A stretch of 38,341 nucleotides of DNA. Origin: Planctomycetota bacterium (lineage in GTDB: Bacteria > Planctomycetota > Planctomycetia > Planctomycetales > Planctomycetaceae). The translations under genes were made by a program, and so were the position numbers. How positions within the stretch are numbered: position 1 is the stretch's first letter; each line of letters opens with the position of its first letter. The notes below the pieces were generated by a model that was given only the letters and a program-made list of their open reading frames with translations, was not told the DNA's origin and did not search any database. Positions 18,271 to 20,543 of the stretch are shown piece after piece. The stretch spans positions 108,433-146,773 of the forward strand of contig JAURQH010000048.1 in assembly GCA_030836185.1 (NCBI GenBank), read 5' to 3'.

Positions 18271-19239
18271 ATGGCCACTGAGAGACCAAATCGCGTCTGG
18301 AACCGGAAACATATCCTCGGATTGGAAGAATTATCCGCGGAAGAAATTACTCAGATCCTCGACCAGGCTGCCGAGTTCAAACAACAAGCAAAAGAGGGAG
18401 TATTGAAGCTCAATTCCCTACGAGGGAAAGTCGTTGCCAACCTCTTTTTCGAGCCTTCGACCCGCACACGAACAAGCTTCGGTCTCGCTGCAAAACGCTT
18501 AAGTGCCGACACCGTCGATTTTTCTCCCTCGGGAAGCAGCCTTTCCAAAGGCGAGACGTTTATCGACACCGCCAAGAACATCGAAGCGATGGGAGTCGAC
18601 CAGGTTGTCGTTCGACACGCGACCCCCGGCGCACCGCACTTGTTGTCCAAACACCTGCAAGCATCGGTGCTCAACGCGGGTGACGGCACTCACGAACATC
18701 CCACCCAAGCCCTCCTCGACATTTTCACCATCCGAGAACAAAAAGGGACATTAGAGGGGCTCACGGTGACTTTAGTGGGCGACATTCTGCATAGTCGCGT
18801 GGCTCGTTCAAATATCTGGGGGCTCAAAAAACTGGGGGCTCGAGTCATCGTTTGCGGACCTTCGACACTTATCCCCCGCGACATCACACAACTCGGCGTC
18901 GAGATTTCCTACGATCTTGACGCCGTCCTACCGGAAACAGACTGCGTCAACTTACTCCGTGTCCAATTTGAACGCCAACGCTCGGCGTTCTTTCCTTCGA
19001 TTCGCGAGTATGCTCACTTATTCGGATTAAACACCGAACGCGCCTCACGCGGTAAAGAGGGAATGGTAGTACTGGCCCCCGGACCGATCAACCGAGGTGT
19101 CGAACTTTCGACCGAGGTGGCCGATGGTCCTCATTCAGTCGTTCTCGATCAAGTCACAAACGGATTGTTAGTTCGCATGTCGTGTCTGTATCTACTCAAT
19201 CAATATCAGGATCGACAAGCCGAAAGGGGAGACTCATGA
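18271..19239 (+). CDS. pyrB: Aspartate carbamoyltransferase catalytic subunit
   Basis: This 322-residue enzyme condenses carbamoyl phosphate with aspartate, the first committed step of pyrimidine synthesis. The carbamoyl-phosphate loop is intact ([18 protein letters not shown]), as are the second-site [12 protein letters not shown] and the late motifs GPINRGVE and [15 protein letters not shown] placed the start at the ATG at 18271, preceded by GGAAGAGA, instead of the in-frame ATG at 18205 whose extra 22 residues have no family match. The stop codon overlaps the next ATG as ATGA, so the dihydroorotase-like protein is translationally coupled. No regulatory subunit (pyrI) is present, as expected for the class of ATCase that pairs with a DHOase-like subunit. 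Confidence 0.95.
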
Positions 19240-20543
19240 CCAGCCTGTTGATTCGTGGTGGACGACTCATCGATCCCTCACAAAACCTGGACAGGACAGG
19301 GGATCTCTTAATCCGCGATGGAATCATTGCCGGTGCGGGAGATGTCGCCGGACATGTCGATGAAGTGATCGAGGCAGAAGAGTTGATCGTATCTCCCGGC
19401 CTGATCGACTTACACACCGCCTTACGGGATCCGGGTGACGAAGAAGACGAGACAACCTATACAGGCACCGCGGCTGCGTTAGCGGGAGGGTTCACCAGTA
19501 TTGCCTGTCTTCCTGACACCACTCCTGCCATTGATAACCGTGCGGCGGCCGAATTCGCAATCTTACAGGCCGCCCGCGCCAGAAACTGTCACGTCTATCC
19601 GTTGGGAGCCGTCACAAAAAGTCTCAAAGGCGAAGAACTCGCCGAGATGGGACAACTCGTTGACGGCGGAGCAGTCGGATTTTCAGACGGTAAGCATCCG
19701 TTACATAACTCCGAAATTATGAGACGTGCTCTCGAATACAGCCGAATGTTTGATCGTCCGATTTTCAATTTCCCCGAAGTCGAAGAATTGAGTCGCTCTG
19801 GAGTGATGCACGAAGGGTATTACTCAACACTGTTAGGATTGCGGGGGATGCCGGCGGCTGCGGAATCGATCATGGTTGGCCGAGACTTGGCATTGGCCGA
19901 AATGACGGACGGGAAACTACACATCACAACAATCACCGTCACAAATAGTGTCAAACAAATTCAGCAGGCCAAAGAAGCCGGAGTCAAAGTCACCTGTTCT
20001 GTCACTCCTCATCATCTCACGCTCGACGATTCGACGCTACAAAGTTTCGATGCCGCGTTCAAAGTCAATCCACCACTGCGTTCACGAGACCACATCGACT
20101 CCCTGATTCGCGGCTTGAAGGATGGCACAATTGATGCGATCAGTTCCGACCACCAACCGTATTCGATCGAGAAAAAACGAAATGAACTGGATCAGGCCCC
20201 ATTTGGCATCGCCGGTCTCGAAACAGTTCTTCCCATCTGCATACAGTCACTGATCGACCCCGGTCATCTTTCATGGTTACAATTGATCGACAAGCTCTCG
20301 ACAAGACCGGCCGCGATTTTGGGACTCTCCAAAGGAACCTTGAAAGAAAACTCAGCCGCCGACATCACGTTGATCGATCCTCATGCGGAGTGGACGATTG
20401 ATCCCGAACAGTTTTTCTCACGAGGACGAAACACTCCCTTTGAAGGATGGGCTGTGAAAGGGCAAGCACACACCGTCATTGTCGGTGGCCAAGTTCGCTA
20501 CTATCGAGGACAAATTCTGTCCCGCATGAATCCTGCTGTCTAA
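19236..20543 (+). CDS. pyrC: Dihydroorotase-like protein, probably inactive (PyrC'-type)
   Basis: The 435-residue product is clearly of the dihydroorotase fold ([15 protein letters not shown], then [47 protein letters not shown]). The metal site, however, is broken. In active class I enzymes the first strand reads DxHxHxRxPG; here the second His is Ala62. The His in the HAEDPEL-type motif is about Phe179 (NFPEVEEL), and the His of the HVST motif is about Thr232 (HITTITV). The late Asp (SSDHQP) remains. This matches the known catalytically dead PyrC' subunits that stabilise aspartate carbamoyltransferase, as described in Pseudomonas. The ATG at 19236 overlaps the pyrB stop by ATGA; the longer frame from 19182 overlaps pyrB and was rejected. 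An active dihydroorotase should exist elsewhere in the genome. Confidence 0.9.

Follow-up and report, generated by a model that had tools for sequence, protein, structure and literature searches.

The dihydroorotase-like protein P0001, whose gene overlaps the end of pyrB, is very likely a pseudo-dihydroorotase, which serves as a structural subunit without catalytic function in an aspartate carbamoyltransferase (ATCase) of class A2. It is encoded in a stretch of 38,341 nucleotides (the window) that comes from a 5.16-Mb planctomycete draft genome (G000, 98% complete), and its gene is referred to here as pyrC'. The first-pass annotation had already read the protein as an inactive PyrC' subunit. 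We arrive at the same reading because P0001 has lost two of the three alpha-site zinc ligands and retained its predicted fold, keeps company with one kind of PyrB, is under purifying selection and is accompanied in its genome by a second gene with a complete site, all of which are documented below and would together point to an inactive scaffold. The repeated evolutionary outcome to which this protein belongs is more interesting than the single PyrC' case.

Table 1. Features of the pyrB-pyrC' locus, in positions of the window
Feature	Position	Strand	Basis
pyrB, aspartate carbamoyltransferase catalytic subunit, 322 aa	18271..19239	+	NCBIfam matches
pyrC' (P0001), dihydroorotase-like, without complete metal site, 435 aa	19236..20543	+	TIGR00857, model, 3d6n_A
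ATGA overlap: pyrC' start ATG 19236-19238 / pyrB stop TGA 19237-19239	19236..19239	+	read directly
H60 codon (Aquifex His61, alpha-site ligand), kept	19413..19415	+	
A62 codon (Aquifex His63, alpha-site ligand), lost	19419..19421	+	
G152 codon (Aquifex Asp153, alpha-site ligand), lost	19689..19691	+	D151 = Aquifex Asp152, gapless
F179 codon (Aquifex His180, beta site, dispensable in Aquifex), lost	19770..19772	+	
T232 codon (Aquifex His232, beta site, dispensable in Aquifex), lost	19929..19931	+	
D305 codon (Aquifex Asp305), kept in 49/49 family members	20148..20150	+	

P0001 is a full-length class I dihydroorotase homologue (382 bits against TIGR00857, pyrC_multi, with a cut-off of 279), and its closest named relatives, from records titled Planctomycetaceae bacterium, are 96 and 89% identical to it. 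The PyrB of the window matches PRK00856 with 390 bits (cut-off 263) and TIGR00670 with 309 (cut-off 237); compared with E. coli PyrB, it keeps S52, T53, R54, T55, K84, R105, H134, Q137, R167, R229 and Q231, and differs at S80 (L91) and L267 (G271), as do its relatives. A separate peculiarity concerns the HPGP motif, as the residue at the position of E. coli His265 is Ala in the window and in all 42 other pyrB rows of the family (APGP); 15 of 16 comparison rows and all seven proteobacterial rows have His. The ATGA overlap of the two genes, pointed out previously, was confirmed by direct reading.

The metal site was judged against the Aquifex dihydroorotase (DHO). In this enzyme, the zinc ligands are His61, His63 and Asp153, and Asp305 lies 2.7 A away; a second site, made up of His180 and His232, is empty. 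The H180A/H232A double mutant has an unchanged Km and a Vmax lower by about a fifth, and the protein without metal is inactive (PMC3880350). Aligned to it, P0001 carries H60, A62, G152, F179, T232 and D305 at the six metal-site positions, and thus four of the six residues are lost, including two of the three alpha-site ligands (His63 to A62 and Asp153 to G152). This bears out the earlier statement that most metal ligands are gone, and A62, F179 and T232, which it named, are exact to the position; it omitted the change of Asp153 to G152, and two of its three residues belong to the beta site. F179 and T232 were therefore rejected as proof of inactivity, and it is A62 and G152 that carry the argument, since the positions of the other two are dispensable in Aquifex. 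Whereas class A1 has an intact alpha site, the H60/A62/G152 combination of P0001 is that of a class A2 PyrC' with lost zinc ligands. Two further active-site residues are replaced (Aquifex Asn95 by D94 and His309 by Y309), both of them the same in 118 of 118 relatives, a set picked for an intact metal site. Among 80 named relatives, which are those kept of 159 found, the complete set (H,H,D,H,H,D) occurs in 77, and the three exceptions are L157 and two close relatives of the window. As for compensating residues, the sequence alignment of the window's family reveals no replacement histidine for the lost ligands, H286 being the remaining candidate; H154 was rejected, as it is N in one of three members of the genus, and so was H192, which is also His in 29 of the 118 intact-site relatives.

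The same site loss runs through the whole family of the window. Our family survey covered 61 genomes, and the 49 loci read come from 47 of them and from G110 and G135. His63, Asp153 and His232 are lost in all 49 orthologues, and His61 is kept in 38, His180 in 30 and Asp305 in 49. Column 63 is occupied by A, S, G, T, K, W or F, column 232 by C, T, S, G, A or N, and column 309 by Y, H, L, F, W and others. The expectation that the window would provide a useful independent example of PyrC' in a planctomycete thus stands as to the case itself, which is by no means a single one: it is common to all 49 orthologues and recurs in other planctomycete lineages. When conservation was compared column by column, 53 columns were found conserved at 95% or above in the 118 intact relatives, the metal columns among them by the choice of this set, and 33 of these are still conserved in the 49 family members. 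The other 20 fall below 90% or switch residue, and ten of them are metal- or active-site columns (Aquifex 61, 63, 65, 95, 153, 154, 180, 232, 307 and 309); as judged from the alignment, decay in the family is heaviest at the active site. Another 51 columns reach 95% conservation within the family and in the 118 relatives are less conserved or hold a different residue. Aquifex 161, 265, 312 and 345 are among the positions that the family conserves.

If P0001 is inactive, another protein has to cyclise carbamoyl aspartate, and the second dihydroorotase implied by the first-pass annotation has a good candidate on contig 53 of G000 (C53, L002). This class I homologue has a complete metal site, with HIH, the YKAYMG lysine, HCED, CHYS and TDHAPHT, so that the separate dihydroorotase expected beside a class A2 PyrC' is present in the genome and, to judge by its residues, is probably active. 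No type II dihydroorotase match was found in G000; the genome does have a match for dihydroorotate dehydrogenase. A single second TIGR00857 match occurs in 46 of the 47 PyrC' genomes (27 of the 46 read as sequence, 19 by score only). Sorted by TIGR00857 score, these second enzymes fall into type A, to which the contig 53 protein belongs and which is found in 26 family genomes, and type B, found in 33, never both together; G017 and G054 have neither. Of 39 second enzymes read in family genomes, the first metal pair is HxH in 19 and QxH in 19, and one sequence is truncated at this point; all 39 retain the remaining histidines and the final Asp. Type B, which mostly has Gln at the first metal His, is the second enzyme in 27 of the 47 PyrC' genomes; it probably is an active enzyme, since one sequence (L115) is named by NCBIfam (PRK07575, 700 bits over 529) and type B is the sole TIGR00857 match in four genomes (G002, G016, G027 and G034). 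In the same manner, type A is the sole TIGR00857 match (E <= 1e-20) in seven genomes without PyrC' (G008, G032, G041, G046, G049, G057 and G058), which argues that this type performs the dihydroorotase reaction. It needs to be mentioned that the contig 53 protein scores 248 bits, below the TIGR00857 cut-off of 279, and does not reach the cut-off of any of the 24 further NCBIfam families listed for it. TIGR00857 thus accepts the probably inactive P0001 as a dihydroorotase and leaves the genome's likely real enzyme below its cut-off, and metabolic models may therefore assign the reaction to the wrong gene.

These data bear directly on the idea that P0001 is still an active dihydroorotase, either zinc-free or with some other metal site. 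There is a precedent for it in a Zur-regulated Pseudomonas PyrC paralogue that lacks the zinc residues and is reported to be active (PMC2770081). In addition, P0001 retains H60, R64 and D305, and H286 might serve as a ligand; the family has its own His there (46 of 49 members) where 115 of the 118 intact relatives have Asp. G017 likewise speaks against our preferred reading, since this genome (91% complete, 990 contigs) has PyrC' and no second dihydroorotase match. On the other hand, the catalytic columns 63, 232 and 309 are held to no new residue across the 49 members, and nearly every PyrC' genome contains the second match. We thus consider residual activity improbable, and P0001 probably neither binds catalytic zinc nor cyclises carbamoyl aspartate, a step that would fall to the contig 53 enzyme.

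The association of PyrC' with PyrB is the next line of evidence for a subunit. A complete PyrC' orthologue is present in 47 of the 61 family genomes and a window-type PyrB in 50 (E <= 1e-40), namely the same 47 and G036, where PyrC' is matched over residues 1-111 only, G007, where PyrC' is divergent, and G054 (80% complete), where PyrB is cut at a contig end and there is no PyrC'. The 11 family genomes without both proteins each have other ATCase-like matches in the TIGR00670 search: in six (G008, G032, G041, G046, G049 and G057) its cut-off is reached only when the partial matches within a single frame of 484-539 aa are taken together, and all of them but G008 also have a weak match to the PyrI end (24-30 bits, cut-off 149), four (G002, G016, G027 and G034) have a form below the cut-off in frames of 403-471 aa, and G058 has a partial match. 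PyrC' is therefore present with one type of PyrB and absent with it, and behaves as expected of a subunit. It may be added that the six long-frame genomes all have an A-type dihydroorotase by score, and the four genomes with the other form all have a B-type one. As to gene order, pyrB lies upstream of pyrC' on the same strand in 43 of the 49 loci, a linkage that in the window takes the form of the ATGA overlap; the two genes are about 105 kb apart in G028 and on separate contigs in G015, G026, G012 and G030, and no pyrB was found within the fetched locus of G135. Class B, which would involve PyrI, was looked for in G000 with TIGR00240 (E <= 0.001), without a match. PyrB-PyrC fusions, suspected from long open frames, were rejected, as pyrB and pyrC matches never lie in one ORF in the loci checked. 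Two PyrC-like proteins stand out by their divergence, L052, beside pyrB in G007, and L110 of G075; both form long branches, and their broken metal sites read HIGLAG and RRSHPD, respectively.

The structural side of the argument rests on an AlphaFold2 model of P0001 (pLDDT 93.8, pTM 0.93), built on an alignment of 39 rows, 35 of which have an intact metal site. Its first PDB match is 3d6n_A, the Aquifex DHO in complex with ATCase (TM 0.95/0.97, rmsd 1.3 A, 39% identity over 424 columns). The fold-defining motifs were said to be kept, and together with the TIGR00857 score the model agrees with this, as would be expected of a class A2 PyrC' that is a full-length class I homologue. On this basis, the following arrangement can be proposed. 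PyrB and PyrC' would be made together through the ATGA overlap, PyrC' dimers would probably link a pair of PyrB trimers, giving a dodecamer of six PyrB and six PyrC', and PyrC' would stabilise or activate PyrB, by analogy with Aquifex DHO and Pseudomonas pDHO. ATCase activity may require it.

It could also be assumed that PyrC' is a non-catalytic partner of PyrB whose role is mainly regulatory rather than structural, a nucleotide or carbamoyl aspartate being bound in the old pocket. The retention of the predicted fold would suit such a role, as would the invariance of D305, P308 and G324 across the 49 family members and the lack of a PyrI match in G000. Several pocket columns are, however, variable within the family, and nucleotide inhibition in P. 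aeruginosa has been ascribed to a loss of complex stability and not to allostery (PMC7053772). We consider a mainly regulatory PyrC' just as improbable as an active one, and a structural subunit remains the preferred reading.

The pyrC' gene is under purifying selection. Between G000 and G059, which share a genus, pyrC' has a dN/dS of 0.041 and pyrB one of 0.034, the latter value including about 11 codons ahead of the pyrB start; for G000 and G003, synonymous sites are near saturation. That pyrC' is a decaying pseudogene carried along by pyrB would be in keeping with the lost catalytic residues, but the frame is intact and under purifying selection, the gene is present in most of the family, and it is kept in G028 despite its distance from pyrB, which together make decay highly implausible. 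Least credible of all is an enzyme re-specialised for another substrate: the amidohydrolase fold does serve many reactions, but in the 49 members the old site shows no sign of a new set of catalytic residues, and the presence of PyrC' tracks one PyrB type.

Several known systems offer a comparison with the planctomycete structural subunit. One is the Pseudomonas class A2 enzyme, an ATCase with an inactive dihydroorotase homologue; in P. aeruginosa pDHO is required, the ATCase chain without it being monomeric and inactive (PMC7053772). Membership of this class would imply a PyrC' with no dihydroorotase activity, a dodecamer with PyrB near 500 kDa and a PyrB that is inactive alone. Other PyrC paralogues are also reported from the Pseudomonas genome (PMC2770081). 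Pseudomonas belongs to another phylum, and for the planctomycete the assembly and dependence are predictions; in our quick tree, its PyrC' is represented by the Acinetobacter L261, a very long branch. The class A1 DHO-ATC complex of Aquifex aeolicus provides the nearest solved fold, and its DHO is described as active only together with ATC (PMC3880350); unlike P0001, with its broken alpha site, it is an active, zinc-binding enzyme. Fungal CAD-like proteins keep an inactive DHO domain beside ATCase (PMC7053772), but in one fused multidomain protein, and pyrB and pyrC share no ORF in the loci checked here. An inactive PyrC' is thus a known kind of protein, and as far as the literature was searched it is new in Planctomycetota: no description of a pseudo-dihydroorotase PyrC' from this phylum was found among the matches listed, in open-licence PMC titles and abstract beginnings, which does not prove its absence. 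On our reading, the inactive PyrC' of the Pseudomonas type extends beyond the Proteobacteria to another phylum.

Loss of the site is found beyond the window's family as well. Of the 98 genomes in a class sample, 73 do not belong to the window's family; 67 of the 73 encode a PyrC of the same kind, and 36 of the 67 were read as sequence (L288-L321, L055 and L057). The site is intact (HHDHHD) in all 28 genomes read from families f3, f55, f56, f58, f59, f60 and f61 and degenerate in all eight from f2 and f57. All eight degenerate genomes have a second class I match (six read, G175 and G183 by score), and two of the 28 intact ones have a second TIGR00857 match, hydantoinase-like in G222 (read) and of 188 bits in G209 (by score only). 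Family f56 is unusual in its gene order, as in seven of eight loci (L295-L300, L319) an intact PyrC stands with no pyrB in the fetched locus, unlike in most class loci read. In G204 (f56, one contig, 99% complete), G247 and G250, no TIGR00857 dihydroorotase match was obtained at E <= 1e-15.

From a phylum sample of 118 genomes, 40 were taken for a comparison of site and second enzyme, two of them shared with the class count. As read, 29 have an intact and 10 a degenerate site, G143 being unread. A second dihydroorotase accompanies the degenerate site in nine of the 10, and is also present in G143; in G107 (90% complete, 7% contamination) the site is degenerate and the second match is only hydantoinase-like, which counts against our best reading. 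No type A or B enzyme was seen in any of the 29 intact genomes (E <= 1e-15), and a hydantoinase-like second match occurs in eight of them (L134, L270-L276). Twelve of a further 21 phylum loci (L094-L114) have HHDHHD and the rest are of other kinds; one of these loci, L099 (G164, family f32), has Asp153 changed to Asn in an otherwise intact PyrC (HHNHHD). All of the degenerate lineages read have a change at Asp153.

Does the degenerate site go together with a second enzyme once the genomes' kinship is considered? Four of five independent pairs agree with the link, one is a tie and none is against (p 0.125), and in a smaller set two of three pairs agree with one tie (p 0.5). A Fisher test over the 40 genomes gives p 1.3e-8, ignoring kinship and counting G143, whose pyrB-linked PyrC was taken as degenerate from its congener G162 both here and in the two-of-three-pair test. 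The link is thus consistent, and not significant once kinship is allowed for.

The number of losses was estimated from trees. In a carefully built tree of 69 rows, from which the metal-site columns were excluded, f2 falls together with f3, f60 and f61, all three intact (100/100), and away from the window's family f1. A clade uniting f1 and f2 is rejected with five f2 rows (p 5e-5) and not rejected with one (p 0.47), and a clade of f1 and f57 is rejected less firmly (p 0.030). The fewest-change count on this tree is two, which would mean one loss and one regain in f3/f60/f61; the tree is compatible both with this and with three losses, and regain of the full set seems far less likely. In a quick tree, the degenerate G107 is nested beside the intact G074 and G092 (99), and degenerate clades are formed by f37/f49/f52 (99) and f20/f50 (94). 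A joint tree of 97 rows needs six changes. Both the 69- and the 97-row trees were made without L110, the long-branched L052 (G007), all proteobacterial rows and most of the rows of other phyla, and the 97-row tree also without L006. As reconstructed from these sequences, and if a complete site was never regained, the ligands were lost at least twice in Planctomycetota, and probably about six times. We give even odds to a broader proposal, that the pyrB-linked dihydroorotase of Planctomycetota was made a scaffold some six times in a one-way ratchet, in which the site decays once a second enzyme is present, nearly always a stand-alone dihydroorotase, and the protein, being needed by PyrB, can go only when the entire ATCase is replaced. 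If this is true, several stages of decay are preserved in living lineages. The graded, repeated losses form a set for asking what keeps a dead enzyme in place and in which order a metal site decays.

Outside the phylum, eight proteins were chosen among the 1001 matching records of a plasmid collection: the seven proteobacterial pyrB-linked PyrC-like proteins (Azospirillum, Methylobacterium, Shinella, Sinorhizobium, Ruegeria, Sphingomonas and Acinetobacter) are all degenerate, and that of Monoglobus (Bacillota) is intact. A described protein of this kind is smc01361 (PyrX) of S. meliloti, whose gene is reported to adjoin pyrB, with an essential PyrC elsewhere; its disruption leads to pyrimidine auxotrophy, and PyrX was proposed to be inactive (PMC5929573). 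The pyrB-linked L265 of S. meliloti resembles P0001 in its degenerate site (RFGGES), but the alphaproteobacterial forms differ in that their six rows group together (SH-aLRT 91, not starred); descent of the window's family from such a form was rejected only marginally, as judged by a single clade of the two (p 0.048). A minor observation concerns annotation, as L265, despite its degenerate site, passes the NCBIfam equivalog PRK09059 'dihydroorotase' with 779 bits over 645, and this probable pseudoenzyme therefore bears the name of an enzyme.
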